Source: Oscillospiraceae bacterium (lineage in GTDB: Bacteria > Bacillota > Clostridia > Oscillospirales > Oscillospiraceae). Taken from it: a stretch of DNA of 63,183 bases. Shown piece by piece: positions 3,070-61,149 of the stretch. A program made the position numbers and the translations under genes. Every line of letters starts with the position of its first letter. The stretch's first letter is position 1. The notes beneath the pieces are model-generated. The model saw only the letters and a list, made by a program, of their open reading frames with translations, was not told the DNA's origin and made no database searches. The stretch is taken from contig CACYLY010000006.1 in the NCBI GenBank assembly GCA_902775355.1, forward strand, positions 1 to 63,183, written 5' to 3'.

Positions 3070-6057
3070 ATGGTAGACATTCTGTCCAAGCTTCTGGGCC
3101 CTATTTTTGAGCCCATGGGCGTCAGCCAGGCAGACCTGACCACGTATCTGACGATGGTCAAGGGCTATGTCGCGGTCATCCTGATCGCTCTGGCTCTTCT
3201 GATCGTGGCGCTGATCGTGGCGCGGTTTGCCAAGAAAGGGAAAAGGCACCTGGTCCGCCGGCATGCGGTGGTCGCCTTTATCGCGATCCTGGCATTGATG
3301 GTCAATCTGATCTGTTTTGGCCCGCTGAAGAGCAATGTTTCCGGTTTTATGAACGCCTCCAAAGCGGAACTGAACGAAGAGACCGTCAGCAAGAGCAAGG
3401 AAGTCATCAAGAACGTGGGCGAGGAAGGCCTGGTGTTGGTGGAAAACAACGGGCTGCTCCCGCTGAAGGACGTAAAAGCGCTGAACGTTTTCGGCTGGGG
3501 TTCCACCAATCCCATCCTGGGCGGCACCGGCTCCGGCTCGTCCGACGGCTCCACCGCCGTGGGCATCCTGCAGTCCCTTCAGGATGCGGGCTTCTCCACC
3601 AATGAAGAGCTCACCGCGCTGTACACGAACTACCGGGCGGACCGGCCCACCGTCGCCATGCAGAGCCAGGACTGGACCCTGCCCGAGCCCACGGTGGAGG
3701 CCTACACCGCGGACGTGATGAGTCAGGCCAAGGCCTTCTCCGATGTGGCGGTGATCGTCATCTCCCGTTCCGGCGGCGAGGGCGCTGACCTTCCCACCGA
3801 CATGAACGCCGTCATCAAGGGGACCTACAACATTGCCGACGAGGTCTCCGTGACCGGGCAGTACGGCTATTTCAACGGCGTCTACACCAACAACGGCAGC
3901 TATGACGATTTTGAACCCGGCGAACACTATCTGGAGCTGTCCGTCACCGAGGAGAAGATGGTGGAGAAGGTCTGCTCCGAGTTTGACAAGGTCATCGTCA
4001 TCATCAACGCCAACAACACCATGGAGCTGGGCTGGGTCCGCGACTATCCGCAGATCGGCGCCGTGATCCTGGCCCCCGGCGCCGGCAACACCGGCCTGGC
4101 CGCCCTGGGCGAGGTCTTTGCCGGCACGGTGAACCCCTCCGGCCGCACCGTGGACACCTTTGTCTACGACCTGACCGACACGCCCACCTGGAACAACTTC
4201 GGCAACTTCGCCTATAACAACGTGGATGACTTCAAGCAGGCCGTGGCAGCCGCGGACCCGGCCTATGAGGGCAACATGGCCTTCGTCAACTATGTGGAAG
4301 GCATCTATGTGGGCTACAAGTTCTATGAGACCGCCGCCGCCGAAGGCCTGATCAACTACGAGGAGAAGGTCCTCTATCCCTTCGGCTACGGCCTGAGCTT
4401 CACCAGCTTTGACAGAAGCATCGAGAACTTCAAGGACAACGGCGACACCGTCAGCTTTGACGTGAAGATCACCAACAGCGGCGCCGTGGCCGGCAAGGAC
4501 GTGGCCGAGATCTACTTCACGCCTCCCTATACCAACGGCGGCATTGAGAAGGCCGAGGTCAACCTGATCGACTTTGCCAAGACCGGGGAGCTGGCGCCCG
4601 GCGCCTCCGAGACCCTGAGCTTCACCCTCGCCAAGGAAGACATGGCCTCCTATGACGCCGCTCTCGGCGGCAAGGGCGGCTACATCCTGGAGAAGGGCGA
4701 GTATGTGATCTCCCTGCGTACCGACTCCCACACCGTCGCGGCGGAGGAACGCTTCACCGTGGCCGAGGACATCAGTTACGTGGACGGCCGCCCCAGCGAC
4801 AAGACTCCCGCCACCAGCCAGTTTGAGTCCTACTCCCGCGGCGATTTTGAGCAGCTGAGCCGCAAGGACGGCTTCGCCAACTACGAGGCTGTCGTGGCCG
4901 CTCCCACTTCGCTGGAGATGAGCGCCGCGGTGCGCAGCGAGCTGGAGAAATACGCCGTCGGCTTCTATGATCCCACCGCGTGGGACGATCCCGCCGACAC
5001 GATGCCCACCCTGGAGGCCAAGAACGGCCTGACCCTGGCGGACCTGGCCGGCAAGAGCTATGACGATCCCGACTGGGACAAGCTGCTGGATCAGCTGAGC
5101 TTCCAGGATATGGCCACCATGATCAACGTGGGTGGCTGGCAGACGGCCGCGATCGACTCCGTGGGCAAGGTAGCCACCTCCGACTGTGACGGTCCCGCCG
5201 GCCTCTCCAACTTCATCACCGGCGCCTACGGCACGGCCTATCCCGCCGAGGTGCTGATGGCCCAGACCTGGAACACCGCGCTCATCGAAGAGATGGCCGA
5301 GGCCATGGGTCAGGAGTACGCCGACGTGAACAACTACGGCTGGTACGGCCCCGCCATGAACACCCACCGCAACGCCTTTGCCGGACGCAACTTTGAGTAC
5401 TACTCCGAGGACGGCGTGCTGGCGGGCAAGATGGCCCTGGCCGAGGCCAACGGCGGCGGCAGCAAGGGCGTGTACCCCTACATCAAGCACTTCGCCCTGA
5501 ACGACCAGGAGAGCAACCGCTGCACCTTCCTGCTCACCTTCGCCTCCGAGCAGGCGATCCGCGAGATCTACCTCAAGCCCTTTGAGACGGTCGTCAAGGG
5601 CTACAAGTACCCGCAGCTGGCCGTGATGAGCTCCTTCAACTTCATCGGCACGGAGCCCAGCACCGCCAACCCCTACCTGCTGAAGAACGTGCTGCGGGGC
5701 GAATGGGGCTTCGTAGGCATGGTAGAGACGGACTATGACGGCTCCTACGGCTACATCATCTCCGACCACTGCGTGCGCGCCGGCAACGACCTGATGCTGG
5801 GCTTCGCCATGGCGGAATCCAACAAGTTCACCGACACCAGCGCCACCGCCACCCTGGCCATGCGGCAGGCCTGCAAGAACATCCTGTACACCGTGGGCAA
5901 TTCCGGATACTACGCCGACGGCGCCGCGGGCGGCGGGATGGACAACATGACCAAGACCTTCCTGTTTGCCGATCTCGGCATCGCCGCCGCGCTGATCCTG
6001 CTGGAGGTCATCCTCCTGACCCGCTACAACAAGAAGAAAAAGGCCGCCGAGGCCTGA
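3070..6057 (+). CDS. membrane-anchored, circularly permuted GH3 glycoside hydrolase
   Basis: A 995-residue GH3 protein with reversed domain order. Two transmembrane helices lie at about 33-54 and 67-84. The GH3 C-terminal alpha/beta domain follows (EEGLVLVENNGLLPL near 115), then a fibronectin-III-like domain (about 430-570), then the TIM-barrel domain (about 660-945). The barrel carries GRNFEYYSED and the nucleophile motif VETDYDG with Asp888. A third membrane helix ends the protein (about 975-990), followed by lysines. Permuted GH3 proteins are known in Firmicutes and include beta-glucosidases and related enzymes; the substrate here is unknown. The topology implies an ectodomain tethered at both ends, acting outside the membrane. 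Transcription starts opposite the LysR gene and ends at the terminator at 6077, so it is probably a single-gene unit. Confidence 0.85.
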   Translation: MVDILSKLLGPIFEPMGVSQADLTTYLTMVKGYVAVILIALALLIVALIVARFAKKGKRHLVRRHAVVAFIAILALMVNLICFGPLKSNVSGFMNASKAELNEETVSKSKEVIKNVGEEGLVLVENNGLLPLKDVKALNVFGWGSTNPILGGTGSGSSDGSTAVGILQSLQDAGFSTNEELTALYTNYRADRPTVAMQSQDWTLPEPTVEAYTADVMSQAKAFSDVAVIVISRSGGEGADLPTDMNAVIKGTYNIADEVSVTGQYGYFNGVYTNNGSYDDFEPGEHYLELSVTEEKMVEKVCSEFDKVIVIINANNTMELGWVRDYPQIGAVILAPGAGNTGLAALGEVFAGTVNPSGRTVDTFVYDLTDTPTWNNFGNFAYNNVDDFKQAVAAADPAYEGNMAFVNYVEGIYVGYKFYETAAAEGLINYEEKVLYPFGYGLSFTSFDRSIENFKDNGDTVSFDVKITNSGAVAGKDVAEIYFTPPYTNGGIEKAEVNLIDFAKTGELAPGASETLSFTLAKEDMASYDAALGGKGGYILEKGEYVISLRTDSHTVAAEERFTVAEDISYVDGRPSDKTPATSQFESYSRGDFEQLSRKDGFANYEAVVAAPTSLEMSAAVRSELEKYAVGFYDPTAWDDPADTMPTLEAKNGLTLADLAGKSYDDPDWDKLLDQLSFQDMATMINVGGWQTAAIDSVGKVATSDCDGPAGLSNFITGAYGTAYPAEVLMAQTWNTALIEEMAEAMGQEYADVNNYGWYGPAMNTHRNAFAGRNFEYYSEDGVLAGKMALAEANGGGSKGVYPYIKHFALNDQESNRCTFLLTFASEQAIREIYLKPFETVVKGYKYPQLAVMSSFNFIGTEPSTANPYLLKNVLRGEWGFVGMVETDYDGSYGYIISDHCVRAGNDLMLGFAMAESNKFTDTSATATLAMRQACKNILYTVGNSGYYADGAAGGGMDNMTKTFLFADLGIAAALILLEVILLTRYNKKKKAAEA

Positions 6058-6076
6058 TCTCTCCGCTTCCTAACAG

Positions 6077-6119
6077 GGGCTGTCGCCGTTCTCCGTCCGG
6101 GGACAGCGACAGCCCTTTT
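6077..6119 (+). terminator. terminator after the membrane GH3 gene
   Basis: GGGCTGTCGC and GCGACAGCCC pair perfectly across a 19-nt loop and are followed by TTTT. Confidence 0.85.
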
Positions 6120-6174
6120 CCGTTTGTCAACACGCGCTGTACACGAACTGCTGTTTTTCGGGCGTGAACTGCGC

Positions 6175-6203
6175 TTTACAAACCCCTGCGAATCGGATAA
6201 AAT
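6175..6203 (+). promoter_or_regulatory. sigma-A-type promoter of the beta-glucosidase operon
   Basis: TTTACA and TAAAAT with a 17-nt spacer lie about 100 bp before the GH3 start. No gene lies in 6120-6305. Confidence 0.75.
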
Positions 6204-6305
6204 GATAGATAGGAAATCCATGCGGGCCGCCGCCTCGCGTCCCCCGGGGCGCCGGAGCGGGCCGGCCTGCGAAACCGAGAATACAGAAAAGGAGGTAGAT
6301 TTGCT

Positions 6306-8732
6306 TTGATTCATGAAGACCTGATCCGTCAAATGACCCTGGAAGAGAAGTGCCACCTGCTGTCCGGGCGGGATTTCTGGCAGACTCAGAGCGTCAAGCG
6401 CCTGGGGATCGAAAACATGACCCTCTCCGACGGGCCCCACGGCATCCGCAAGCAAGAGGGCGCGGGAGATCAGCTGGGCCTGAACGGTTCCCTGCCCGCC
6501 ACCTGCTACCCCACCGCGGCCACCATGGCCAATTCCTGGGACCCGGCCCTGGGCGAGGAGCTGGGCAAGATGCTGGGCGAGGAGGCTGCCAGTCAGGACG
6601 TCTGCGTGCTGCTGGGCCCCGGCCTCAACATCAAGCGCAGTCCCTTCTGCGGCCGCAACTTCGAGTACTTCTCCGAGGACCCCTATCTGGCGGGCAAGAT
6701 GGCCGCGGGCTACATCCGCGGCATCCAGGCAAACGGCGTCTCCGCCTGCCCCAAGCACTTTGCCGCCAACAACACCGAGCTGCGCCGCATGGCCTCGGAC
6801 TCGGTGATGGACGAGCGCACCCTGCGGGAGATCTACCTCACCGGCTTTGAGATCGCCGTGCGGGAGGGGCATCCGAAGTCCATCATGTCCTCCTACAACA
6901 TGGTCAACGGCGTCTACGCCAACGAAAACTACCATCTCCTGCAGGAGATCCTGCGGGATACCTGGGGCTTTGACGGCTTTGTGGTGTCCGACTGGGGCGC
7001 CAACAACGACTTCACCGAGGGCGTGCGGGCCGGCTCCCACCTGGAGATGCCCGGCACCGGCGGCGACGGCCCCCGTCAGCTGATGCAGGCCGTGGCCGAC
7101 GGGAAGATCACCGAGGCCGAGGTGGACCGGCGCGTGGACGAGCTGCTGGATGTGATGCTCTCCACCCGTAAGGCCGTGGATCCCCTCAAGGGCAAGCCCT
7201 TTGACAAGGACGCCCACCACGCCTTCGCCCAGAAAGCCAGCGAGCAGTCGATCGTCCTGCTCAAGAACGAGGACAGGATCCTGCCTCTCAAGCCCGGCAG
7301 CAAGGTGGCCGTGATCGGCGAGTTTGCCAAAAAGGCGCGCTACCAGGGCGCGGGCTCGTCGGTCGTCAACTGCACCAAGCTGGACCACACTATGGACGTG
7401 ATCGGAAACTTCGATCTCGATGTCGTCGGCTTTGAGCCCGGCTATCCCCGCCACGGCGCGCCGGATGCGGCCATGATGCAGAAGGCCGCGGAGCTGGCGA
7501 AAAAGGCCGAAACTGTGCTGCTGTACCTGGGCCTGGACGAGATCAGCGAGAGCGAAGGTCTGGACCGCTCGACCCTGGCGATCCCCCAGTGCCAGATCGA
7601 GACTCTCAAGGCCGTCAGCGCGGCCAACCCCAAGGTCATCATCGTCATGTCCGCCGGCTCTTCGGTCGAGATGCCCTGGCTGGATCAGTGCAAGGCCCTG
7701 GTCCACGGCTACCTCTGCGGCCAGGCGGGCGCCTCCGCGGTGCTGAAGGTGCTCCTGGGCCAGGTGAACCCCTCCGGCAAGCTCAGCGAGAGCTACCCTG
7801 TGAAATACGAGGACTGCTCGTCCGCGCCCTACTTCCCCGCCAGGCAGCGGAACGTGGAGTACCGCGAGGGTCTGTACGTGGGCTACCGCTACTATGAGAC
7901 GGCGAAGCTCCCGGTGCTCTTCCCCTTCGGCTTCGGCCTGAGCTACACCAGCTTTACTTACTCCGATCTCACGGTCACGGACAAGGCGGCGACCTTTACG
8001 CTGACCAACACCGGCGACCGGGACGGCGCGGAGATCGCGCAGCTCTATGTCCACGCCAAGGCCCCGAAGGTCTACCGCCCGGCCAAGGAGCTCAAGGGCT
8101 TCCAGAAGGTCTTCCTGAAGGCCGGGGAGAGCAAGACCGTCACCATCGAGCTGGACGACAAGGCCTTCCGCTACTGGAACGACAAGACCGGCAAGTTTGA
8201 GATCGACGGCGGGGACTATGAGATCCTGATCGGCGCCTCTGTCGCTGACATCAAGCTCAGCGGCGCCGTGACCGTCAAGGGAACGGACGCGCCGGCCTGC
8301 GAGGATCCCGCAGCCCTGCCCCACTATTTCAGCGGCGACATCAAGGCCGTGCCCGACGCCGAGTTCAAGGCTCTGCTGGGCCGGGAGATCCCGGACGGCA
8401 GCTGGTCCGGCAAGATCCGGGCCAACGACGCCATCGGCCAGCTCTACTACGCCAAGGCCCTGAAAGCCCGCTTCGCCTGGAAGATCATGGACGGGATGCT
8501 GAAAAAGAGCATCGAGAAGGGCGAGCCGGACCTGAACATCACCTTTATCTACAACATGCCCGTCCGGGCCATCGGCAAGATGGCGGGCGGCATGGTGAGC
8601 CAGGAGATGTGCGAGGGCATCCTGGACATCATCAACGGCCACGGCATCAGCTTCTGCAAGGGCCTGGGCAAGGTGATCGGCGGCTTCTTCAAGCAGCTGG
8701 GCATTGCCAAGAAGCAGAAGGCGCTGGAATAA
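6306..8732 (+). CDS. GH3 beta-glucosidase
   Basis: An 808-residue cytoplasmic GH3 enzyme in the normal domain order. The TIM barrel covers about 1-300 with the nucleophile motif FVVSDWGA (Asp229) and the substrate-site KHFAANN/GRNFEYFSED. The alpha/beta sandwich domain follows (about 310-550), then the fibronectin-III-like domain (570-660) and a ~150-residue helical tail. There is no signal peptide. The start is a TTG, 10 nt after GGAGG; no better start exists. The expected reaction is removal of non-reducing beta-linked glucose from imported oligosaccharides. The next two genes, a small membrane protein and a GPH symporter, fit uptake followed by intracellular hydrolysis. The 3' third is duplicated at 695-1624. 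Confidence 0.92.
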   Translation: MIHEDLIRQMTLEEKCHLLSGRDFWQTQSVKRLGIENMTLSDGPHGIRKQEGAGDQLGLNGSLPATCYPTAATMANSWDPALGEELGKMLGEEAASQDVCVLLGPGLNIKRSPFCGRNFEYFSEDPYLAGKMAAGYIRGIQANGVSACPKHFAANNTELRRMASDSVMDERTLREIYLTGFEIAVREGHPKSIMSSYNMVNGVYANENYHLLQEILRDTWGFDGFVVSDWGANNDFTEGVRAGSHLEMPGTGGDGPRQLMQAVADGKITEAEVDRRVDELLDVMLSTRKAVDPLKGKPFDKDAHHAFAQKASEQSIVLLKNEDRILPLKPGSKVAVIGEFAKKARYQGAGSSVVNCTKLDHTMDVIGNFDLDVVGFEPGYPRHGAPDAAMMQKAAELAKKAETVLLYLGLDEISESEGLDRSTLAIPQCQIETLKAVSAANPKVIIVMSAGSSVEMPWLDQCKALVHGYLCGQAGASAVLKVLLGQVNPSGKLSESYPVKYEDCSSAPYFPARQRNVEYREGLYVGYRYYETAKLPVLFPFGFGLSYTSFTYSDLTVTDKAATFTLTNTGDRDGAEIAQLYVHAKAPKVYRPAKELKGFQKVFLKAGESKTVTIELDDKAFRYWNDKTGKFEIDGGDYEILIGASVADIKLSGAVTVKGTDAPACEDPAALPHYFSGDIKAVPDAEFKALLGREIPDGSWSGKIRANDAIGQLYYAKALKARFAWKIMDGMLKKSIEKGEPDLNITFIYNMPVRAIGKMAGGMVSQEMCEGILDIINGHGISFCKGLGKVIGGFFKQLGIAKKQKALE

Positions 8733-16007: not shown

Positions 16008-17588
16008 TTACCTGGTGCCGGTCAGGGCCACACCGTTGACATACAGCGTGTAGCCGTTGGAGACGACATTGGCCGCGTCGCCGCTGAACGAGCTGACGTA
16101 GCTGTCGCCGGTCAGCGTCCAGGTGCTGCTGGCATCCAGCGTGACGGACACCGTGCCGACCTCGGTGGAAACGGTCTCGCCCTTGGCGTTCATGATGCTG
16201 CCGTCGATGCTGCCCTCAAAGCTCGAGCCCTCCGTCAGCTCCAGCGTCAGGCTGGAATCGCTGCCGACCTTGATCGCGCCGACGAGCTGCTGTGCGATGG
16301 CCTTGAGCGCGGCGACATTGCTGCCGCCGCTCCAGCCGTCCGCACAGACGGAGAGCAGGATCTTGTCCGCGTCCTCATTGACGATGGTCACGCCCTCCAG
16401 GGTGATCACCGCGTTGGTGTTGGTCACGTGGAAGACGTGGCCGCTCTTGCTGGTGAGGATCCCGCCGGTCATGGTGAAGTGGCTGGTGCCGCTGGCAGCG
16501 TCGCCGGACATGGACTGGTAGATCATGATCGTATCCAGGAAGGTGGCGTTGCTGTTGCGCTGGGTGTTGTTCGCCGTCAGGTCGCAGTCAACGAGCGTGA
16601 TGGCGTTCAGCCCCTCGATGCACACGCCCTCGGACAGGTTCGAGGTCAGAGTGGCGTTGGACACGGTAATGTCCGCCGTGGAGTAAATGGCCGGGCTGCC
16701 CAGACCGTTGGAGGTGTAGCTGCCGCCGTCCACTACCACGGTACCGCCGCCCCGGTCGGTGCGGATCGGCGCCGAGGACCGGCCGGAGGTGGTCACTTCC
16801 AGATCATAGGCGTAGGTCACGCCGCCGCCGGTGGTCATGATGCCGCCGGAGCCGTCGCCGGTGGTGACGATGACGGTGTCGTAGATAGTCAGCGTGGTCC
16901 CGTCGCCCGCCGCGCCGTTCTGTCCGCCGTTGCCGCCGTAGCAGAAGACGCCGTTGGCGCCGGAAGCGTCGGAGCTGATCGTGCCGCCCCGGATGGTGGC
17001 CGTCGCGCCGTCCTTCACGAGGACCGCGGCGTTCAGGCCGTAGAAGTTGCAGCTGTCCCCGCCGTCGGAATCGCCGGACTTGGTGACCGTGGGATCGGTG
17101 ACGGTCACCTCGTCGGCGGTGCTGATCAGCAGGGCGCTCTCGTCGGCGGTGCTGCTGGCATAGGTCTGGCCGCTCTGGCTCTCGGCGGAGCTGATTTCCG
17201 TCGCGGCGCTGTAGTCAATGTCCGCGCTGCTGCCGCCGGGACCGCCGCCGAAGCCCCCGGGCGGGTCTCCGGGAGGCGTGCCGCCGGGACTGCCGCCGAA
17301 ACCATCGGGCGGGTCTCCGGGAGGCGTGCCGCCGGGACCGTCGCCGAAGCCCTCGGGCGGATCTCCGGGAGGCGTGCCGCCGGGATCGCCGCCGAAGCCC
17401 TCTGGCGGATCTCCGGGGGGCGTGCCCTCGGGCCGCTGGCCCTCGGTCGCTTCGGTCGTCTCCGTCGTCTCGGTCTGGGCCGCCGCGCTCTCCTCCGTCG
17501 CCTCGGTGGCGCCGCAGCCGGTCAGCAAGAGCAGAAGCATCAGCACGGCAAGGATCAAAGCAAGGGTTTTTCCATAGGTTTGTTTCAT
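16008..17588 (-). CDS. secreted lipoprotein with Pro-Gly repeats and a beta-helix
   Basis: A 526-residue lipoprotein. A signal peptide with lipobox LLTGC lies at residues 1-26, then a Thr/Glu-rich linker, then four 16-residue repeats of the type GTPPGDPPEGFGGDPG (about 55-118). The rest is a repetitive, Thr/Ser/Gly-rich region with the period of a right-handed parallel beta-helix (DGATATIRGGTISSDASG and similar), ending in VYVNGVALTGTR. Such proteins in Clostridia are surface-exposed adhesin-like or carbohydrate-active-like proteins; no catalytic motif could be identified. The start at 17588 follows AAAGGAGAG. It is downstream of rsgA on the same strand, but a 108-bp gap suggests its own promoter. 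Confidence 0.8.
   Translation of the reverse strand: MKQTYGKTLALILAVLMLLLLLTGCGATEATEESAAAQTETTETTEATEGQRPEGTPPGDPPEGFGGDPGGTPPGDPPEGFGDGPGGTPPGDPPDGFGGSPGGTPPGDPPGGFGGGPGGSSADIDYSAATEISSAESQSGQTYASSTADESALLISTADEVTVTDPTVTKSGDSDGGDSCNFYGLNAAVLVKDGATATIRGGTISSDASGANGVFCYGGNGGQNGAAGDGTTLTIYDTVIVTTGDGSGGIMTTGGGVTYAYDLEVTTSGRSSAPIRTDRGGGTVVVDGGSYTSNGLGSPAIYSTADITVSNATLTSNLSEGVCIEGLNAITLVDCDLTANNTQRNSNATFLDTIMIYQSMSGDAASGTSHFTMTGGILTSKSGHVFHVTNTNAVITLEGVTIVNEDADKILLSVCADGWSGGSNVAALKAIAQQLVGAIKVGSDSSLTLELTEGSSFEGSIDGSIMNAKGETVSTEVGTVSVTLDASSTWTLTGDSYVSSFSGDAANVVSNGYTLYVNGVALTGTR
17235..17426 (-). repeat. four-copy 48-bp coding minisatellite
   Basis: Four tandem 48-bp units encode the Pro/Gly linker of the lipoprotein. 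The multiple of three keeps the frame when copies are gained or lost. Confidence 0.85.
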
Positions 17589-17696
17589 GACTGTTCTCTC
17601 CTTTCCTTTTTCTGCTCTCATCATAAGCAGGATACCTTAGTTTCAGCTTAAGGGATCCGGTTTTTTCATTTTTTCTTCTGCAGGCGCTCCCGCGCC

Positions 17697-19245: not shown

Positions 19246-19932
19246 TCACTCCTGATACAGGCCCACGGCGTCCCGCCCGAAGCTCCCCTCCGGCGTGTCC
19301 ACCACCAGGTAGTAGTATCTCCGCTTCACGGTCTTTTCCCGCAGGAAGGCCTGGGCGCTGGCCTTGTCCGGCCCGTTGTAGACCTCGTAGATGCTGAGCC
19401 CGTCGCTGCCTGTGAGGGTCTGGCTGTAGCGGACCAAGGCGGCGTTGCCGGTCTCGGCATCTGTCCCGGCGGCGGGGGCACAGCGCATCTTGCATCTGCC
19501 CTCGTGATCGGCGAAGGCCGCCTCCGCCAGGCGGAACTCGTCCCGGGTCAGGTCGCTGCCGGTGACCAGGGCCTCAAACTGCCCGGTGGGCGCGCCTCTG
19601 CGCAGGATCTCATAGTAACCGAAGGTCATCCGCCGCTCGCAGATCAGCTTGCCGGAATCCGCCGCCTTGTGGATGAAGGGCAGGGCCAGCATGGCCTTCT
19701 CCGCCGCCTCCGCCGAGGGGAAGGTGAACAGCGTAAAGGGCGGCTGGACGGGCAGGGTCGGCCGTTCCTTCTTCCAATAGGCCAGGGCCTGGGCCATGCT
19801 CTCCTGCCGGCTGCCCCGATTGTCCCGCTCGGTGTAGCGTCCGCCGGCGGCGCTGCCGGCCTTCGCCGGCGCTTCCGTTCCCCCCGCCGCTCCCCGGGCG
19901 GCGTTCTTTCTCCGATCCATGAAGATCCCCAT
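19246..19932 (-). CDS. conserved-looking protein of unknown function
   Basis: A 228-residue soluble protein. The first ~50 residues are Ala/Gly/Arg-rich and probably disordered. After residue ~55 there is a compact alpha/beta part with FTLFTFPSAEAAEKAMLALPFI, ERRMTFGYYEIL, KTVKRRYYYLVVDTPEG and other segments. The ATG at 19932 has an AAGGAGG site 8 nt away. It lies between the terminator of the kinase operon and the promoter of the small RNA, so it is probably monocistronic. I recognise no family or catalytic motif. Confidence 0.7.
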   Translation of the reverse strand: MGIFMDRRKNAARGAAGGTEAPAKAGSAAGGRYTERDNRGSRQESMAQALAYWKKERPTLPVQPPFTLFTFPSAEAAEKAMLALPFIHKAADSGKLICERRMTFGYYEILRRGAPTGQFEALVTGSDLTRDEFRLAEAAFADHEGRCKMRCAPAAGTDAETGNAALVRYSQTLTGSDGLSIYEVYNGPDKASAQAFLREKTVKRRYYYLVVDTPEGSFGRDAVGLYQE

Positions 19933-20013
19933 GCCTGCAGCCTCCTTCTTGTCTTTTCAACTGCAGTATAGCGCCCCTCTCCCCCCGCGTTGTCTGCGCA
20001 GCGCATACAAACG

Positions 20014-20045
20014 CAAAAAAAGACCGGTTTCTCCGGTCTTTTTTT
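20014..20045. terminator. bidirectional terminator of the glycosyltransferase-kinase operon
   Basis: AAAAAAAGACCGG and CCGGTCTTTTTTT flank a TTTCT loop just after the stop of the gene at 20064. Confidence 0.92.
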
Positions 20046-20063
20046 GCAGATGATCGACTTTGC

Positions 20064-21581
20064 TCAGTATTCGGCGGCTCTTCCCTTGTCCGCGCCGCTG
20101 ACGCGCACCTTCCAGAGTCTGCCGCCGTCGTCCTCGTTCTGATAGAAGATCCACTTCCCCGCCACCTGGAAGGAGGACGTGGGAGTGGAGACCACCGTGA
20201 AGCGGGTCCTGCCGTCCAGGGACATCCACTCCAGGGTCCTGCCGCTGCCGGCGATGTAAAAGATCCCGCCGTCGGAGGCGTTGGGCGAGGAGGCGGGCAG
20301 ACCCGTCAGGATCTCCGGGCTGCCCCCGTTGAGATCCATGCGCAGCAGGCCGTAATCCGTCCCCGCGTAGAGCTTTCCGGCGTAGATGCAGAAGCTCTCA
20401 TAGGGATTGCTGCTGATCAGGCTGGTCTCGTCGCCCCGGGGGTCGATGCAGCAGATGCCGCCGCCCTTGTCCGGGTCGATGAAATAGAGCTTGTCCTCCA
20501 CCACGTTCAGGCTGCGGTACTCCGCCGCCCCGCTGATCTGCGTAAGGCTTTTGCCGTCCTTCTCGATGCGGTAGAGATAGCGGGTGTCGGCGCTGTCCCA
20601 GAGATAGAAGACGTCCTCGAAGATGAAGAGCCTGCCGCCCCGCTCGCAGAAGATCTCTTCCTTCTTGGTCTCCGGGTCCAGCCGCAGGATCTTCTCCGGC
20701 GTGCAGCAGTAGAGCGCGCCCTGATAGTACTGCAGACTCACGGCGCCGCTGCCCTTTTTCAGCAGCGCCGTCCGCCCGGTGGCCGCGTCCATCCGGAGGA
20801 TATCCCCGTTCAGCAGGAAGAACACGTCCTTCTCGCTGTAGGCCGCGGTGGGACCCTCCCCCACGGCATAATTGCCCGAGAGGCTGCCGCTGTGGCTGTC
20901 CACGGAGGCGGCGTTCACCACCATCCCCGGGGCGGCGGAAAAGCCCCGGTCATAGCCCTCGGCGTAGCCGGGACGGTAGCCGGCCGCGTCCCCGGCCTTG
21001 GCGCCGTTCACCCCGCCGGTCCGCCAGGCGGCGAAGATCAGCGCCGCCAGGGCCGCCGCGGTCAAAAGGATCAGCAGGACCGGGGCCGCCCTCCGCCCGA
21101 GGCGCATCTCCCGCCTCACCGCGTTGTGCAGGGAGGCCAGATCCTCGAAGCGTTCCATGGGATCGAAGGCCGCCGCCCGGCGGATCAGCGAGAGGAGCCT
21201 GGCGTCGCTCAGGGAGATCTCCGCCTCCCCCTTCTTCTCCTGCCCTGTGGCCATGTACAGCATGAGCATGCCCAGGGCGTAGACCTTTTCGCTCTGTCCG
21301 TTCAGCTCCGCCCGGTTCTGCTCCGGCGGCAGATATACCGCCAGCTCCGCCGGCGTCGCCTCCCGGGCTATGAGCCGCACTTCCCCGTACTGGTCCACCA
21401 GCACCGAGGCCGGGCAAATCAGCTGCCGCCCGGAGAGCTCCTCGGGACCGGTCAGCCTCTGGCACAGCCGCCGGATGATCGGATAGATCGCCTCGGCCCG
21501 CAGGGGGCCGTCCTCGGTGATCAGCTCGGCGATGCTGCGCTCCGTCTTGTCTTTCCATCTGAAGCGTTTCTTTTTCCCCAT
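20064..21581 (-). CDS. membrane pseudokinase with propeller-like sensor domain
   Basis: A 505-residue protein. Residues 1-165 resemble only part of a Ser/Thr kinase: YLPPEQNRAELNGQSEKVYALGMLMLYMATGQ matches the APE-to-helix-F region, and LIRRAAAFDPMERFEDLASL the C-lobe end. The HRD loop and DFG are absent, so it should not phosphorylate. A membrane helix (about 170-190) and a Gly-Tyr-rich stalk (YRPGYAEGYDRGF) follow. Then comes a ~300-residue repeat region of the DUF5050/propeller type, with blades such as GGRLFIFEDVFYLWD and DKLYFIDPDKGGGICCIDPRG. The neighbour at 21587 has the same stalk and propeller after an apparently competent kinase; the two genes overlap by about 4 bp if the GTG at 21590 is used. 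It is probably a regulatory partner. Confidence 0.75.
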   Translation of the reverse strand: MGKKKRFRWKDKTERSIAELITEDGPLRAEAIYPIIRRLCQRLTGPEELSGRQLICPASVLVDQYGEVRLIAREATPAELAVYLPPEQNRAELNGQSEKVYALGMLMLYMATGQEKKGEAEISLSDARLLSLIRRAAAFDPMERFEDLASLHNAVRREMRLGRRAAPVLLILLTAAALAALIFAAWRTGGVNGAKAGDAAGYRPGYAEGYDRGFSAAPGMVVNAASVDSHSGSLSGNYAVGEGPTAAYSEKDVFFLLNGDILRMDAATGRTALLKKGSGAVSLQYYQGALYCCTPEKILRLDPETKKEEIFCERGGRLFIFEDVFYLWDSADTRYLYRIEKDGKSLTQISGAAEYRSLNVVEDKLYFIDPDKGGGICCIDPRGDETSLISSNPYESFCIYAGKLYAGTDYGLLRMDLNGGSPEILTGLPASSPNASDGGIFYIAGSGRTLEWMSLDGRTRFTVVSTPTSSFQVAGKWIFYQNEDDGGRLWKVRVSGADKGRAAEY

Positions 21582-21586
21582 GGCCC

Positions 21587-24500
21587 TCACCTCTCTGACA
21601 GCACCGGATGGTCGTTGGCCCCGTCGAGCCGGACGGCCCAGAGCCTGTTCCCGTCGTCCTTGTTGTGGTAGAAGACCCAGCCGCCGGCCAGATTCAGGTC
21701 CACGGCCCGGTTGCCCGTGATCCTTTCCCGGATCCGTCCGTCAAAGGAGCAGCGGATGACGGCTTCCTCCGCCTCGTCCAGGAAAACCAGGCCCTCGTTG
21801 GCGGCGTGGAGCATCCTGGCCCGGACCTCCAGCAGCTGCGTCTCCGCCCCGGTCCGGCAATCGACGCGGACCAGCCGCTCCGTGCCGTCTTCCTCCCGGG
21901 AGCAGTACAGCGCCCCGTCGAAGAGGCAGAAGCTGCGCACCGGCCCCGGGACCAGCAGCTCCGGCGTCTCCCCGTCGCCGCCCCAGCGGTAGAGTCCGTG
22001 GTCGCTCCGGTCCACGAAGTACATCGCCTCGTCGTCGATGCTGAGCATTTCGCAGCCGGCCAGCTCTTTGATCCGGGAAGCCTTGCCGATCTTGATGTCC
22101 AGCCGGAAGAGGCCCTTGTCCGTCAGGATATAGAAGTCCGCCCCCCGGACGTAGAGCTTGCCGCTGACGCCCTCGCAGAGCACGTCGATCTCGGGACTGT
22201 AGAGGTTCGCCTGCAGGATCCGGTCCCCGGCGGAGTAGTACAGCCAGTCCCGATAGCAGCTGATGGCGGAAACCCTGTTCTTCTCCACCATCCGGACCTG
22301 CTCCGTGCCGTTGGCGTTCATGCGCCAGATCGCCCCGTCGGCCACATAGAAGACGTAGCCGCTGCCCTGGGCCGCGAAGGCCCCGCCGGGCGCCGCCATG
22401 TCCGCCGGGTCGGTGCCCAGCTCCGGCGGCAGGGCCGCGTCGCTCTTCAGGAAGACGGGAGCCGCCCGGTAGCCCTCCGCGTAGCCCGCGTCATAGCCCT
22501 GGGCATAGCCCCGGTCCGCGGCCGCGTCCCGCTCCGTGCGGAAGCCCTGCCAGTAGGCAAAGCCCGCCAGCGCAGCGGCTGCGGCCAGCACGGCGGCGGC
22601 GATCAGCAGCCGGCCTCTGCCCTTCTGCCGGTCCCGCTTCCGGCCCCGGAGGATGTAGCGGCGGATCTCCTCGGCGCTCTGGATGCGCGTCTTCGGGTTG
22701 AAGGCGATGCACTGGCCGATCAGATAGCGGAGGCGGTTGTTCACGATCTGGGCCTCCAGGTCCGAGCGGATGGTGCGCCCGGTGGCCAGGAACAATAGCA
22801 CCACGCCCAGGGAATAGATATCGGACAGCGGGGTGGTCTGCTCAAAGCCGAACTGCTCGGGAGAGGCGTAGTCCAGGGTCAGGACCACGGCGGTGTCCCG
22901 GCTCCGCTGCTGCTTGTGCTCCCGGGCGATGCCGAAGTCGATGAGATGGATGCTGCCGTCCCGCGCCAGAACGATGTTCTGGGGCTTGATGTCCCGGTGG
23001 ATGACCGGCGGGTTCTGGCCGTGGAGATAGCAGAGGATGCCCGTGATCTTCCGGGCGATGTCGAAGATGTCCTCCGTGCCCAGGCTCCCGCCCGACGAGA
23101 CGATGTCGTAAAGCGTGCGGCCCTCGACGTACTCCCGGACCAGATACCGGGCTCCGTCCTTTTCCAGATAGCCGTAGACCTTGGGGATGCAGGGGTGATC
23201 CAGCTTCTGCAGGAGCTGGGCCTCCTCCAGGGCGTCCTCCTCCGGATTGTCCCGGGTGACCCGGAGCAGAGCCCTGGCGCCGTCGGTCTTCCTGCGCAGG
23301 AGATACAGCTCCTTTTTCCCGTCCGGGTCCTTCCGGAAGCAGCTCTCGAAGATGTAATTCGCCAGCAGCTCCTCCGGCATCCCGTCCTCGGGCATGGCGG
23401 CCTGCAGGGCCTCCTCATAGGCGGCCAGGAACTGCTCCTCCGGCAGATCGGCGGAATAGGGATCCCGATCGATCACCAGAGGCGAGAGCAGGCTTTCGCT
23501 GCGCTGTCCCCGCTCGTCCGCCGGGGTCTTTTCTTTGTGTTTGATCATACGCTTTACTCCGGTCTGTCCGGTTTCCGCCGCCTTCCCGCCCAGGCCCCCG
23601 AAAAGCTGGGGGGTCAGCAGGATCGGGACCAGCACGGTTCCGAACAGGATATAGCCGTAGGTGAACACGGTGGCCAGCTCCAGGCCCTTTCTGGTCAGCA
23701 GGTAAACGCCCCGGTCCAGGCACAGGAAGGCGATCACCAGGAACATGGGGTTTTTCTTGAAGAACTGGATCAGGATCTTCATGCCGTCCCGGAAACGGTA
23801 GTCCAGCTGGTCCACGTTGGTGGAGGGGAAGGAGCGGGTGATTTTCTTGACCTTGTTGGCCAGGTAGCGGCAGGCGCCGATGAAGATGGAATAGGAATGG
23901 CCCAGGAAGGACAGGGAGATCAGCAGCGAGTGGCTGATGCCCTCGTGCTCCTCCGGCTGCAGGCGCCTGGTCACCACGCTGCGGGACAGGGGCGCCACCA
24001 CAAAGCAGAAGATACACAGCAGGAAGCCCGCCCACAGCATGTGGATGTTCCCAATGTAGTTTTCCAGCAGCACCGTGGGGATCAGCAGGGTCTGGTTGAC
24101 CACGGAGCAGAAGTACAGCAGCATGTAGAAGATATCGCAGGGCCGGGCCTGCTTCGGCGAGATCGTCCCGTCGAAGATCATCTCGAACAGGCCGTAGGCA
24201 TAGCGGCGCTGCTTGTTGGTCTCCTCGGTGAAGGTGCGGCTGGCGGACTCGGAGAACTCCAGGCCCCGCAGCTGGGCGTACTTCCCGTGGAAGCCGTGGC
24301 CGTAGAGGCGGATGGCCATGTCGTAGTCCTCGGAGACCCGGTCCTCCGCCCAGAGCCCGCTGGCCTCCAGCATGCTCCTGCGCAGGAACACATTGTGTCC
24401 CACCAGAGGGACGAAGAAGCCCTGTAGGGCCTTGCTGGGCCAGATGTTGTGAAAGAGGTTGTTGGTCTGGTGGCCGGTGGCGGAGCTGTAATAGTTCTCA

Positions 24501-25405
24501 TAGAGATTGTCCGTCCTGGTGGCGCACTGCACATAGGCCAGCTTGCTGTCCACGGCGAACTCCGGCAGTACCGCCTCGATGATCCGGTCCTTCAGGCCGG
24601 AGTCCTTGTCCAGCAGCAGGATGACCTCGTGGATGACCACCGTGCCCTCCGCGTAGCCGCCGGCAAAGGGGCCGTCCTCGGCGAAGAGGCTGTCCGGCAC
24701 CCGGCCGCCGGGGGCCGCCTTGCAGAGCCGGAGGGTGTAGTTCAGGTTGGAGGCCTTCTTGAAGAGGCCTGCCCGGTTCGCCGCGGGCCGCGCCACGAAG
24801 GCGATGCCCTGCTGCCGGTAAAAGCGGATGCGCTCCGCCGCCATCCGCTCCTTGGGACTCAGGCTGTCGTCGTTCTTCTCCAGGGCTTCCAGCAGCTCCT
24901 CCGCCCGCTCTTTCGTGCAGCGGCCGCCCATCAGGGGGGCCAGGCCGTCGTCGGACACCACCACGTTGGCCTTGGCGCCGCTGAATTCGTGATAGCGCCG
25001 GGCCGCCGCCTGGCTGTTCAGGAAGGTGTTGAAAATGATCTCGTTGCTCTCGGTGTATACGGGGATGCTGACGGTCACCGGCAGCAGAGCGTCCCGCAGG
25101 ACCTCCTTCTGCACGGTGTTCATGTAGTATTTCCGGTTGACGGCGATCTCCCCCGAGAGGATCCGCCGGATGGAGGGGTGCAGGGACCAGAGCACGTCCG
25201 CCAGATAGCACAGGGGGTAGATGAAGAAGATGAAGGAGAGGAAAAGGCGCAGGAAGCTTTGGACCGTCATGCCGTAGGTGAAGAACAGGGCCAGATGGGC
25301 CGCGGCGTTGACGGCCAGCACGGCGACGTACAGCCACACCCCGCAGGCGCGGTTGCCCAGCGCCTCGGGGATCTGTCTTTTTTTGTTCTCCTGTTTTGCC
25401 TTCAT
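21587..25405 (-). CDS. membrane glycosyltransferase - Ser/Thr kinase - propeller sensor fusion
   Basis: A 1272-residue protein combining three modules. Residues 1-640 form a cellulose/hyaluronan-synthase-like GT2: two N-terminal helices, SIPVYTESNE near 113, VVVSDDG, LLLDKDSG near 265, SEDYD near 358 and a KQRRYAYG variant of QxxRW, then several helices. Residues ~680-910 are a Ser/Thr kinase with HRDIKPQN (His803, Asp805), DFG (Asp823) and SPEQ. Its glycine loop is not visible and the usual VAIK lysine seems to be Arg (ALLRV). A helix near 920-940 and a GYAQGYDAGYAEGYR stalk lead to a propeller-like domain (990-1272). It presumably makes a polysaccharide under phosphorylation or ligand control. 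There is no frame break at the joins. It lies 81 nt after a glycanase-like gene. Confidence 0.85.
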   Translation of the reverse strand: MKAKQENKKRQIPEALGNRACGVWLYVAVLAVNAAAHLALFFTYGMTVQSFLRLFLSFIFFIYPLCYLADVLWSLHPSIRRILSGEIAVNRKYYMNTVQKEVLRDALLPVTVSIPVYTESNEIIFNTFLNSQAAARRYHEFSGAKANVVVSDDGLAPLMGGRCTKERAEELLEALEKNDDSLSPKERMAAERIRFYRQQGIAFVARPAANRAGLFKKASNLNYTLRLCKAAPGGRVPDSLFAEDGPFAGGYAEGTVVIHEVILLLDKDSGLKDRIIEAVLPEFAVDSKLAYVQCATRTDNLYENYYSSATGHQTNNLFHNIWPSKALQGFFVPLVGHNVFLRRSMLEASGLWAEDRVSEDYDMAIRLYGHGFHGKYAQLRGLEFSESASRTFTEETNKQRRYAYGLFEMIFDGTISPKQARPCDIFYMLLYFCSVVNQTLLIPTVLLENYIGNIHMLWAGFLLCIFCFVVAPLSRSVVTRRLQPEEHEGISHSLLISLSFLGHSYSIFIGACRYLANKVKKITRSFPSTNVDQLDYRFRDGMKILIQFFKKNPMFLVIAFLCLDRGVYLLTRKGLELATVFTYGYILFGTVLVPILLTPQLFGGLGGKAAETGQTGVKRMIKHKEKTPADERGQRSESLLSPLVIDRDPYSADLPEEQFLAAYEEALQAAMPEDGMPEELLANYIFESCFRKDPDGKKELYLLRRKTDGARALLRVTRDNPEEDALEEAQLLQKLDHPCIPKVYGYLEKDGARYLVREYVEGRTLYDIVSSGGSLGTEDIFDIARKITGILCYLHGQNPPVIHRDIKPQNIVLARDGSIHLIDFGIAREHKQQRSRDTAVVLTLDYASPEQFGFEQTTPLSDIYSLGVVLLFLATGRTIRSDLEAQIVNNRLRYLIGQCIAFNPKTRIQSAEEIRRYILRGRKRDRQKGRGRLLIAAAVLAAAAALAGFAYWQGFRTERDAAADRGYAQGYDAGYAEGYRAAPVFLKSDAALPPELGTDPADMAAPGGAFAAQGSGYVFYVADGAIWRMNANGTEQVRMVEKNRVSAISCYRDWLYYSAGDRILQANLYSPEIDVLCEGVSGKLYVRGADFYILTDKGLFRLDIKIGKASRIKELAGCEMLSIDDEAMYFVDRSDHGLYRWGGDGETPELLVPGPVRSFCLFDGALYCSREEDGTERLVRVDCRTGAETQLLEVRARMLHAANEGLVFLDEAEEAVIRCSFDGRIRERITGNRAVDLNLAGGWVFYHNKDDGNRLWAVRLDGANDHPVLSER

Positions 25406-25486: not shown

Positions 25487-26758
25487 TTATCCGATGTCAA
25501 AGGGGTTCAGGCCCAGCTGGGCGAAGGCCAGCCAGCCCGTGGCGCCGATGCTCTGCTCGTTGTTGTACTCCCAGAGCATCTCCGAGCCGGCGATGACAAA
25601 GCCGGTGGACAGGCCGTCCCTGTCCGCGGCGGGCATGCTCCCGTCCTTGTCCGTCTGGGTCGCCAGATAGGCCATGATCCGCTCGTAGCGCTCCGTGTCG
25701 CCCAGCATCAGGTAGCACACCGCCATCTGCGCCGTGCCCTCGTTCCAGATGCCGTCCAGGTCGCCGGCGCTGAAGTCAAAGCCCTCGCCCACCGTCATCC
25801 GCTCCTCCACGAAGCCGAGGACCGGCGCGGCGTCCGCCAGCTCTCCGCCCAGGGCCAGGACGGCCAGGCTGTTGGTGTCCAGGGGGATCACCGCGTCGCT
25901 GACCGTTCTCCCGTCGTTCTCCGTCCCGGTATAGAAGCAGTGCAGCTCCGGGTCGTACATGGCCAGGACGAAGGCCTTGGCCCAGTCCGCCGCCTCCCGG
26001 TACGCCGCTGCCCGCTCCGGGTCCGTGGTCTCCAGGGCCCGGGCCAGAGCGCTGAAGGCGCAGTACAGGTCGATGTTGTGCTCCGTGGACTGATAGGTGA
26101 CCTTGGTCTGGGCCTCATCCCAGCCCTCGTAGCCGGCGGTGAAGCCGCCGTTGTCCGACTTCAGGCCCAGGACGAAGTCCGCCGCGCGCTGGGCGGCCTC
26201 CAGGTACTCCGCCCGCTTCTCCTGGGAGGCGTTTTTCGCGGTGGCGCAGAGGGCCAGGATCGTCCAGGCCATGTTGCCCGTGGAGGTGGACACCGTGTAG
26301 GCGTCCTCCTGCCAGCGCCCGTTCTGCCAGAAGCCGGGGATGCGGACCGTCACCTTGCCGGCGGCAATGGAGCGCCCGGCGTCGCTCTGGGGGTCTCCGC
26401 TGAGGTAGGTGTTCCGGAGCCGCCCGTCGTGGAAAGTCCGGTCGTGGGTCTGGGCGAAGACGATGGCGTCCGCGATGATCTCCGCATGGGTCTGGGCCCC
26501 CACCCTTGACAGCAGCACCGCGGCCAGCGCGTTGTCGTACAGGTAGGCGTAGTCCGCGGTCTTGTCCCGCTGGGTGTCGCTGGCGATAAAGCCGCCGCTC
26601 TTCTCCACCTTCGCGGCCAGGAAGCCCGCCGCAGTGGAGCGGGTCGAGAGCTCCTCCGCCGAGGGGGTGATTGTCTTTTCGCCGCAGCCGCCCAAGAGCA
26701 TGGCGGCGGCGATCAGCAGGGCGACCAGCGCCTTTGCAGCATGTTTTCTTTCCCTCAT
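25487..26758 (-). CDS. lipoprotein with alpha/alpha-barrel glycanase-like fold
   Basis: A 423-residue lipoprotein with a signal peptide and lipobox MLLGGC. The mature part is made of helical hairpins with aromatic/acidic motifs of alpha/alpha-toroid glycosidases (GH8- or GH88/105-like): DYAYLYDNALAAVLLSR, STSTGNMAWTILAL, DNGGFTAGYEG, STEHNIDLYCAFSALA and DLDGIWNEGTAQMAV. I cannot assign the family or prove the catalytic residues. It is encoded directly before the membrane glycosyltransferase, as cellulose synthase operons carry an extracytoplasmic glycanase (BcsZ-like), so a role in trimming or releasing the polymer is likely. The start at 26758 follows GGAGG by 5 nt. Confidence 0.78.
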   Translation of the reverse strand: MRERKHAAKALVALLIAAAMLLGGCGEKTITPSAEELSTRSTAAGFLAAKVEKSGGFIASDTQRDKTADYAYLYDNALAAVLLSRVGAQTHAEIIADAIVFAQTHDRTFHDGRLRNTYLSGDPQSDAGRSIAAGKVTVRIPGFWQNGRWQEDAYTVSTSTGNMAWTILALCATAKNASQEKRAEYLEAAQRAADFVLGLKSDNGGFTAGYEGWDEAQTKVTYQSTEHNIDLYCAFSALARALETTDPERAAAYREAADWAKAFVLAMYDPELHCFYTGTENDGRTVSDAVIPLDTNSLAVLALGGELADAAPVLGFVEERMTVGEGFDFSAGDLDGIWNEGTAQMAVCYLMLGDTERYERIMAYLATQTDKDGSMPAADRDGLSTGFVIAGSEMLWEYNNEQSIGATGWLAFAQLGLNPFDIG

Positions 26759-26865
26759 GTCAACCTCCGATATTCCGTAAAACGCCTTCGTTTTTCTGTC
26801 TTCATCCGGATTCTACCGCGAAAAGCGGCCTCCGTTGTATGCGCGGGGCATACATCTGTGATTTT

Positions 26866-27321
26866 TTATTCGTTCTCGGACCCGTCGTCCAGGGGCGGGA
26901 TGCCCAGGGAGCACATAAAGCTGTAGGTCCTGATGATGTCATAGCCGTGATTGATGGCGAAGATCACAGCGGCGTCCCGCTTGATGAGGGGATGCAGGGG
27001 GCCGCACTGGGTCACCGACAGCATCCGCTGGGTGCTTTTCAAGTCCAGGGACATGGCCAGGGCGATCAGCAGGTAATAGTCCCGCTTCCCCCGCCTGCGC
27101 CCCTCCATCAGCTGGTAGCCGTAGGTGCGGGAGAGGTTGGCCTTCCGGATGACCTCGCCCTTCTTCTGCCCGGTCTCCTCCAGGAGCTCGTCAAAGAACT
27201 TCCGGATATCCTCGTCCAGAAAGTCCTCCCAATCCTCCGGGAAAGCGTCCCCCATCAGCCTGCTCTGCATCTGGATGGTGTCAAGGGCTTTTTTCTTCCC
27301 GCTCTCGTTTGCTTCGCTCAC
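26866..27321 (-). CDS. small HTH-like regulatory protein
   Basis: A 151-residue protein. The core, IRKANLSRTYGYQLMEGRRRGKRDYYLLIALAMSLDLKSTQRML, looks like an XRE-type helix-turn-helix. It continues with a helical tail (RDAAVIFAINHGYDIIRTYSFM). The same ~100-residue module forms the C terminus of the macro-domain protein at 41821-43002. I start at the GTG at 27321, 10 nt after GGGAGG. It is the first gene of the operon leading to the glycanase-like lipoprotein and the glycosyltransferase-kinase, so it may control it. The 107-bp gap to the next gene includes a small TGTATGC palindrome. DNA binding is inferred. Confidence 0.7.
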   Translation of the reverse strand: MSEANESGKKKALDTIQMQSRLMGDAFPEDWEDFLDEDIRKFFDELLEETGQKKGEVIRKANLSRTYGYQLMEGRRRGKRDYYLLIALAMSLDLKSTQRMLSVTQCGPLHPLIKRDAAVIFAINHGYDIIRTYSFMCSLGIPPLDDGSENE

Positions 27322-27418: not shown

Positions 27419-27447
27419 AGTATAAACGAAAACGCTGGCAATGGCAA
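27419..27447 (-). promoter_or_regulatory. promoter of the HTH-glycosyltransferase operon
   Basis: On the minus strand TTGCCA and TATACT have a 17-nt spacer; a second TATACT lies 7 bp downstream. It should drive the whole leftward operon to 20064. Confidence 0.7.
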
Positions 27448-41392: not shown

Positions 41393-41824
41393 TTATTGCT
41401 CCTCCAGCAGGCGCAGGGCCGCGGCGTACTTCTCCACCCGGGCCAGGTCCCGCTCTGTCACCGTGTCCAGGCGCGTCAGGTCGCTGTTGTGCCGCAGATC
41501 CGCCAGCTTCACCGTCCGCGCCACGGGGTTTTGCTTCAGCCGGGCCACATAGTCCATGTAGGGCTCCGCCGGGTCGTGGGTCAGCAGGGCCACCGCCTCC
41601 AGGGCCCGGGGCGGAAAGTCCATCCGCCGCAGATCCTCCAGGCTATAGTCCGTATCCTCCACTACGTCGTGCAGCAGGGCGGCCACGGTGCAGTCCTCGT
41701 CAGGCATCTGCTCGGCCAGGTGCAGCGGGTGGGTCACATAGGGAAGGCCGCACCTGTCCAGCTGTCCCGCGTGGGCCTGAAAGCTCAGCTTAATGGCTTT
41801 TTTCGTCTGTTCCGTGTAGATCAT
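41393..41824 (-). CDS. HD-domain hydrolase (RelA/SpoT- or MESH1-like)
   Basis: A 143-residue HD protein: KLSFQAHAGQLDRCGLPYVTHPLHLAEQM, the HD motif in AALLHDVVEDTDYSLEDL, and LKLADLRHN-type motif VKLADLRHNSDLTRL with the second Asp. These are the features of the ppGpp hydrolase domain of SpoT and of the small hydrolase MESH1. There is no synthetase domain. It may hydrolyse (p)ppGpp or another nucleotide 3'-diphosphate. Its ATG overlaps the stop of the macro-domain gene (ATGA at 41821-41824), so the two are translationally coupled. Confidence 0.88.
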   Translation of the reverse strand: MIYTEQTKKAIKLSFQAHAGQLDRCGLPYVTHPLHLAEQMPDEDCTVAALLHDVVEDTDYSLEDLRRMDFPPRALEAVALLTHDPAEPYMDYVARLKQNPVARTVKLADLRHNSDLTRLDTVTERDLARVEKYAAALRLLEEQ

Positions 41825-61036: not shown

Positions 61037-61128
61037 AGCTGTCTCCCTTTCCGCGTCACCGCAGCGCTCTGGGGGCAGGCTTCTCTGCGGTTTTTCGCCT
61101 GATTTCCAAACAGAAATCCATAATTTTG

Positions 61129-61149
61129 CCCATAACCCATAACCCATAA
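61129..61149 (-). repeat. heptamer repeat in the kinase-TIR leader
   Basis: Three perfect copies of CCCATAA (TTATGGG on the coding strand) lie between the promoter and the start codon and include an alternative in-frame ATG. Confidence 0.7.

Follow-up and report, generated by a model that had tools for sequence, protein, structure and literature searches.

A predicted glycan synthase and a receptor-type kinase in one chain, with a possible route to transcription, in an Oscillospiraceae bacterium

Background

Polymer synthases of bacteria are known to be under the control of second messengers or of proteins separate from them. We describe here, in a 63,183-nucleotide stretch of DNA from an Oscillospiraceae bacterium (contig CACYLY010000006.1 of assembly GCA_902775355.1; the whole stretch is called the window), a gene whose product joins a predicted membrane glycosyltransferase of family 2 (GT2), a Ser/Thr kinase, a further transmembrane (TM) helix and a predicted external DUF5050 propeller. 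Synthesis, sensing and signalling share one chain in this fusion, and a literature search of open-licence PMC articles found no described GT2-kinase fusion. On the minus strand the cluster runs from P4 (26866-27321), a gene for a small helix-turn-helix (HTH) protein, through a lipoprotein gene, the fusion and a pseudokinase twin of the fusion to a terminator-like stem.

With processive GT2 enzymes of the BcsA type (cellulose synthase), the fusion shares a GT2 domain set between membrane segments and the DD, DxD and ED motifs, and its ED/QxxRW region matches BcsA structures in a profile comparison (E 8.8e-4), the sequence similarity being marginal. It differs from these synthases in having KQxRY for QxxRW and in its C-terminal kinase, TM helix and propeller; Pfam lists no PilZ domain in it, and its match to the NCBIfam CelA model lies far below that model's cut-off. 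With the Hanks-type receptor kinases PknB, StkP and PrkC it shares the layout of a cytosolic kinase, one TM helix and an external sensor, and its kinase aligns to both StkP and PknB. In contrast to them, it has a DUF5050 propeller and no PASTA match in Pfam (a PASTA kinase model scores 133.7 bits on the fusion, against a cut-off of 450), it lacks a glycine loop, has Arg at the VAIK lysine, and is furnished with an N-terminal synthase and an HTH partner gene.

Another likeness is to the WNK kinases, which have Cys at the position of the VAIK Lys and a Lys in the beta2/glycine-loop strand instead. The beta2 Lys of the fusion stands where WNK kinases have theirs; the fusion differs in having Arg at VAIK, and the comparison concerns lysine placement and does not extend to homology within the WNK family. 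One report names K233 as the catalytic lysine (PMC6007472). CrbS, described as a histidine kinase fused to an SLC5 symporter (PMC5715377), offers the parallel of a membrane transport protein joined to a signalling kinase with a transcription-activating partner; in contrast to the fusion, it pairs a histidine kinase with a response regulator and carries a transporter instead of a synthase. TsgL, a T7SSg component described as a DUF5050 beta-propeller protein (PMC11217815), shares DUF5050 with the fusion and its twin and has neither synthase nor kinase.

One reading frame from synthase to propeller

The gene and the parts of its product are as follows.

21587..25405, minus strand: fusion of GT2 synthase, Ser/Thr kinase, TM helix and DUF5050 propeller, 1272 aa (open reading frame (ORF), Pfam and alignment)
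24146..25105, minus strand: GT2 region, residues 101-420, with Asp152/153, Asp266/Asp268, Glu359/Asp360 and KQRRY at 398-402 (Pfam and alignments)
22646..23368, minus strand: kinase domain, residues 680-920, with Lys698 (beta2), Arg715 (VAIK), Glu728, HRD at 803 and DFG at 823 (Pfam and alignments)
22553..22609, minus strand: last TM helix, residues 933-951 (hydropathy)
22466..22513, minus strand: GxxxG-type repeat DRGYAQGYDAGYAEGY, residues 964-979, placed just outside the membrane (alignment)
21590..22435, minus strand: predicted external DUF5050 propeller region, residues 991-1272 (Pfam)

The single frame has no internal stop, and Pfam matches cover Glyco_trans_2_3 at residues 261-467 (E 1.2e-24), Pkinase at 719-893 (8.9e-37) and DUF5050 at 1091-1268 (3.5e-22). 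Kyte-Doolittle hydropathy, the only predictor used here, places hydrophobic segments at about residues 23-41, 48-75, 429-447, 456-474, 553-571, 575-604 and 933-951; membrane segments thus flank the GT2 domain, with one more at 933-951. A net charge of +7 in the 15 residues before that last segment makes a kinase inside and a propeller outside the fitting arrangement. The uninterrupted frame with membrane GT2, kinase, further TM helix and propeller that a first-pass annotation had read from the DNA alone is therefore confirmed by ORF, Pfam and hydropathy.

The GT2 domain scores 87.7 bits against a Pfam cut-off of 27. Asp152 and Asp153 are invariant in a 10-row alignment, as are Asp266, Asp268, Glu359 and Asp360 in a 14-row glycosyltransferase alignment; in the same 14 rows, Q399, R401 and Y402 of KQRRY are invariant, with Tyr for the Trp of QxxRW. 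At the other end of the protein, DUF5050 (PF16472) scores 79.3 bits in the fusion and 82.4 in the twin, above the gathering score of 27, and a GY/GF-spaced repeat is present at the GxxxG-type site in all ten fused rows. The best explanation of this chain appears to be that a GT2 synthase of the processive type, making a sugar polymer, was built into a receptor kinase.

Conservation and spread

A scan of genome contigs returned 19 loci, 13 of them with the GT2 part. At nine of these 13 (L031-L037, L039 and L041; L035 is cut by a contig end) the fusion lies in one frame and is 50-77% identical to that of the window; L038 has these genes too, with a break in the frame; in L040, L042 and L043 the GT2 is unfused. 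On a GT2 tree of 17 rows, with L038 counted as fused and four inner branches unresolved, the label fused or unfused changes only twice. The simplest story would be one gain and one loss of the fusion, the loss being L065, a decayed unfused GT2 copy placed within the fused clade.

The GT2 part is rare, occurring in one of 398 phylum genomes (the window's own), in four of 300 genomes of its family (its own, two with an unfused GT2 and one unfused with an in-frame TGA) and in two of 299 genomes of the family of L034. A full-length fusion query matched 54 of 60 relatives, and among the matches listed none outside the window's own genome reaches the GT2 part. Carriers are named as Oscillospiraceae, Lachnospiraceae, Christensenellaceae, Erysipelotrichaceae, Clostridiaceae, Actinomycetes and Coriobacteriales; this range of carriers suggests horizontal spread.

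A displaced lysine in the kinase domain

We aligned the ten fused kinases with 37 standalone kinases (36 beside P4 genes, plus P0005, a leucine-rich repeat (LRR) kinase) and seven controls. HRD, DFG and the alpha-C Glu are kept in all ten fused kinases, each of which also has Arg at the VAIK Lys (Arg715 in the window) and a beta2 Lys three residues before a conserved Tyr (Lys698); where a glycine-rich loop would stand, the fused kinase has ESCFRKDPDGKKELY. In an independent HMMER alignment to StkP, Arg715 falls on the VAVK Lys, and Lys698 lies within the strand of the glycine loop. The alignments agree with the earlier reading of intact HRD and DFG, no glycine loop and Arg at VAIK.

The standalone kinases mostly keep the Lys in the VAIK column (28 of 37); six (L002, L003, L139, L141, L142 and L143) have it one residue earlier, where the register is unsure, and three (L012, L048 and P0005) are without it. 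A Lys in the beta2 column occurs in four of the 37 (L048, L117, L139 and L141) and in none of the seven controls. The fused pattern of Arg at VAIK and Lys at beta2 is repeated by L048 and nearly so by L012. The placement fits a WNK-like displacement, in which Lys698 would take the catalytic role; with an invariable Lys at beta2, the VAIK Arg alone does not decide for a weak kinase.

The HTH partner and a box at a putative -35 position

The partner gene and the elements with promoter-like features are the following.

26866..27321, minus strand: P4, small XRE-like HTH protein, 151 aa, candidate phosphosite Thr15 (homologues and weak HTH matches; GTG start judged from homologues)
27419..27447, minus strand: candidate promoter before P4, TTGCCA-17-TATACT (consensus scan only)
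26836..26854, minus strand: box 1, TGTATGC-CCCGC-GCATACA, candidate operator between the P4 and lipoprotein genes (pattern search)
26810..26815, minus strand: -10-like hexamer TAGAAT, 20 nt after box 1 (pattern search)
19991..20009, minus strand: box 2, TGTATGC-GCTGC-GCAGACA, 55 bp beyond the stop of the twin (pattern search)
19965-19970, minus strand: TATACT hexamer, 20 nt after box 2 (pattern search)
19246..19932, minus strand: 228-aa protein behind box 2, with a relative behind a box in L100 (ORF and box-neighbour scan)

A P4 homologue precedes the lipoprotein gene in all nine other fused loci. Matches of the family to HTH_26 and HTH_3 are weak and confined to a few members, while a Thr near the N-terminus is found in 54 of 55 family rows, the remaining row being cut off there, which makes it a candidate phosphosite. 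P4 adjoins the kinase in all but one (L009) of the 11 loci L002-L012 and in 5/5 of L044-L048; it does so in none of the 18 loci L013-L030 and not in L049 (L002-L030 cover only about 1.5 kb either side of the match). Searching from the other side, we found a kinase within 1.5 kb in 25 of the 30 best P4 loci; the five without one nearby are the window itself (L114), the short contigs L121 and L137, and L123 and L129. By gene order, then, P4-family genes are associated with the kinase family of the fusion. The analysis also brings out an HTH-kinase gene pair common in the window's class, of which a literature search in open-licence PMC found no description. P4-family matches at E up to 1e-8 occur in 77 of 291 class genomes; macro-domain proteins and others of greater length are counted among them.

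Among such longer proteins, one encoded in the window (41821-43002, minus strand) has a macro domain and a C-terminal part that matches the P4 profile (E 1.4e-9), and many ORFs of about 330-370 aa with a P4-profile match are present in the class sample. LRR repeats follow the kinase in five of nine scanned kinases; these P4-linked standalone kinases (L003, L004, L005, L007 and L008) have a layout like that of plant receptor-like kinases. The genome of the window has another kinase match at G000:C14:13979-15234, which contains two TGA codons and adjoins a P4-family gene.

The palindromic box lies between the P4 and lipoprotein genes in eight of the ten fused loci, one mismatch being allowed, and 55-227 bp past the stop of the twin in eight of the nine loci whose contig continues (2218 bp in L032). 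A stricter palindrome pattern hits two places in the window, where 0.15 matches are expected; the scan registers every place once per strand. Across genomes, TGTNTGC-N5-GCANACA has 33 sites, spread over all ten fusion genomes, and a single site among ten others (G463); the reversed control pattern has none in the ten fusion genomes and one place in G128 (G461 and G465 were left out of this search). The box combined with the -10 pattern is found in two of 300 family genomes, at three places in the window's own and one AT-rich place in G534.

TAnnnT stands exactly 20 nt downstream at 27 of the 33 box sites, compared with an average of 1.1 and a maximum of 5 at the other offsets from 8 to 37 (the counts leave out one orientation of L092, an L091 duplicate, as well as the TATAAG of L034 and L035). 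This spacing was first noticed on seven sites and held for 22 of the remaining 26. Activator-dependent promoters typically have a site that covers the -35 region at a fixed distance. We also considered the box as an RNA hairpin, which is disfavoured by a recurrent variant, GCAGACA opposite TGTATGC, that breaks a pair instead of keeping it.

The genes behind boxes differ between hosts. Besides the fusion cluster itself they encode a 168-aa zinc-ribbon-like protein (L090, L093 and L094; of the three, L094 was scanned and its Pfam match is below cut-off), a zinc-ribbon protein above cut-off on contig C53 of the window's genome (L102), putative lipoproteins (L095, L098 and L099), small membrane proteins (L105 and L108), a TPR-type protein (L101), a PBP-family protein (L105) and, in G462, the LRR receptor-like kinase P0005 (L107, 2325-4344, plus strand), whose box has no -10 at +20.

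The twin, the lipoprotein and unfused relatives

Three further features complete the cluster.

20064..21581, minus strand: pseudokinase twin, a kinase C-lobe without HRD or DFG, then TM helix, GxxxG repeat and DUF5050 (Pfam and alignment; ATG start judged by eye, the ORF extending to 21590)
20012..20048, minus strand: stem resembling an intrinsic terminator, with 16 pairs and a T run, downstream of the twin (sequence scan)
25487..26758, minus strand: lipoprotein, 423 aa, possibly an alpha/alpha-toroid glycan enzyme (lipobox, profile and PDB searches)

The first-pass annotation had proposed a single-chain synthase, kinase and sensor clustered with a glycanase-like lipoprotein and a pseudokinase twin, an arrangement that is conserved in the relatives. 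The twin can now be described more sharply: it matches the kinase C-lobe only, neither HRD nor DFG occurs in any of nine rows, a TM helix and DUF5050 follow, and the spacing of its GxxxG repeat, which is like that of the fusion, is invariant. The lipoprotein assignment is strengthened by a lipobox Gly-Cys invariant in 12/12 family members. The glycanase assignment fared less well, no Pfam or NCBIfam family being above cut-off (the best, Pec_lyase, at 16.6 bits against 22) and PDB searches giving no convincing relative, with matches at E 0.6 only; Pec_lyase is matched at E up to 1 by seven of the 12 members, the window protein remaining below cut-off.

The lipoprotein and GT2 genes look like the core of the cluster, and in two genomes of the window's genus (L066 and L067) this pair occurs with no kinase beside it. 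In L070 (4005-11890, minus strand), a GT2 of the fusion family adjoins a 1703-aa protein with GH94 and glucoamylase domains, a layout known from cyclic glucan synthases; this possibly hints at a glucan product.

Proposed mechanism and alternatives

We give a probability of roughly 0.4 to the reading in which the synthase is at the same time a receptor, its signal passing via P4 to the transcription of the synthase operon and of envelope genes. Two external propellers, of the fusion and the twin, joined through the membrane and GxxxG repeats, would read the polymer or the condition of the envelope. The kinase, with Lys698 replacing the VAIK Lys as in WNK kinases, would phosphorylate P4, most likely at the N-terminal Thr, and P4 would bind boxes at the -35 position, so that the synthase operon and further envelope genes with a box would be transcribed more strongly, while the lipoprotein would trim or bind polymer outside. 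The synthase would thereby report its own output to transcription. The full version, in which one chain makes a glycan, senses the outside through its propeller and the twin, uses a WNK-like Lys and phosphorylates a dedicated HTH activator, at an N-terminal Thr, that turns on the operon and host-specific envelope genes via the box with its fixed spacing to the -10, is somewhat more tentative. If true, the enzyme would also be a receptor, reporting on what it does itself; the cluster offers direct tests in its candidate operator, candidate phosphosite and displaced lysine.

The first-pass annotation had thought of a self-regulated exopolysaccharide machine. Its observation stands, more strongly than it was stated, and its interpretation is partly supported: since the P4 HTH gene and the promoter box belong to the cluster, a transcriptional output rather than self-regulation is pointed to. 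The annotation would also have been refuted by the lack of a GT2 active site; checked at the level of sequence, the GT2 motif residues are invariant. As standalone P4-kinase pairs share no palindrome, it is gene order and co-occurrence that speak for the proposed binding of P4 to the box.

Several observations weigh against the proposed signalling route. Loss of the VAIK Lys is usually inactivating, and P0005, itself behind a box, has Arg at both VAIK and beta2. The QxxRW motif of the GT2 is altered. Two fused loci (L037 and L039) have no recognisable box between the P4 and lipoprotein genes, TAnnnT is absent at +20 in six of the 33 sites, including that before P0005, and a palindrome common to the intergenic stretches of standalone P4-kinase pairs was sought and not found.

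A serious rival, if an unlikely one, is control in cis, where polymer synthesis would be switched when the kinase phosphorylates the GT2 part, the channel of the synthase or a partner, transcription being secondary. The linkage in one chain, kept in all ten fused proteins, would suit this, as would a kinase as constrained as the GT2 (dN/dS between the window and L032 is 0.17 for the GT2, 0.18 for the kinase, 0.34 for the linker and 0.38 for the propeller). The low ratios of GT2 and kinase count in favour of the receptor reading as well. In L068 (Ohessyouella; 4870-8702, minus strand) the unfused GT2 gene overlaps by 4 bp the gene of a 648-aa protein that has HisKA and HATPase domains; a different sensor kinase stands there where the Hanks kinase would be, as if a close kinase were useful. 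However, the partner of this kinase family is otherwise the P4 HTH gene, the box links the cluster with transcription, and the unfused GT2 genes of L066 and L067 have no kinase beside them at all.

Less probable again is a kinase that transfers no phosphate and acts as a scaffold, binding nucleotide or P4 and changing shape, so that with its C-lobe twin it would form an allosteric relay between propeller, P4 and synthase. Retention of HRD, DFG, the alpha-C Glu and the beta2 Lys in all ten fused kinases is more than a scaffold needs, whereas the uniform Arg at VAIK, the missing glycine loop and a twin lacking HRD and DFG in 9/9 rows are what it would lead one to expect.

We think it rather improbable that a regulator other than P4 reads the boxes and that the fusion is linked to the regulon only structurally. 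This would account for the lack of a shared palindrome among standalone P4-kinase pairs and for boxes on contigs away from the cluster, but boxes occur in 10/10 fusion genomes against one of ten others, and they recur between the P4 and lipoprotein genes (8/10 fused loci) and after the twin (8/9).

An artefact of assembly or annotation, in which a sequencing error near residues 620-690 would have fused two separate genes, can be rejected in spite of a GGAG-like sequence and ATG at the junction (about residue 624, judged by eye), as expected of a separate kinase gene, and of several records being metagenome-assembled genomes, since nine loci from other genomes, one (L041) on a 550-kb contig, keep a single frame across the junction, the Met of which is not conserved; the first-pass annotation would have been refuted by relatives showing two separate genes, with an assembly join at about residues 640-690, but the relatives carry the same fusion. 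A kinase-only product from an internal start is likewise rejected, the junction Met not being conserved.

Other genes of the window

Three further minus-strand features of the window were noted. At 58391-61147 a 918-aa protein combines protein kinase and TIR_2 domains, and at 43013-45421 an 802-aa protein has a subtilase domain and a weak zinc-ribbon match. The 538-aa ORF at 16008-17624 has a lipobox-like start followed by repeats of the PPGDPPEGFGG type.

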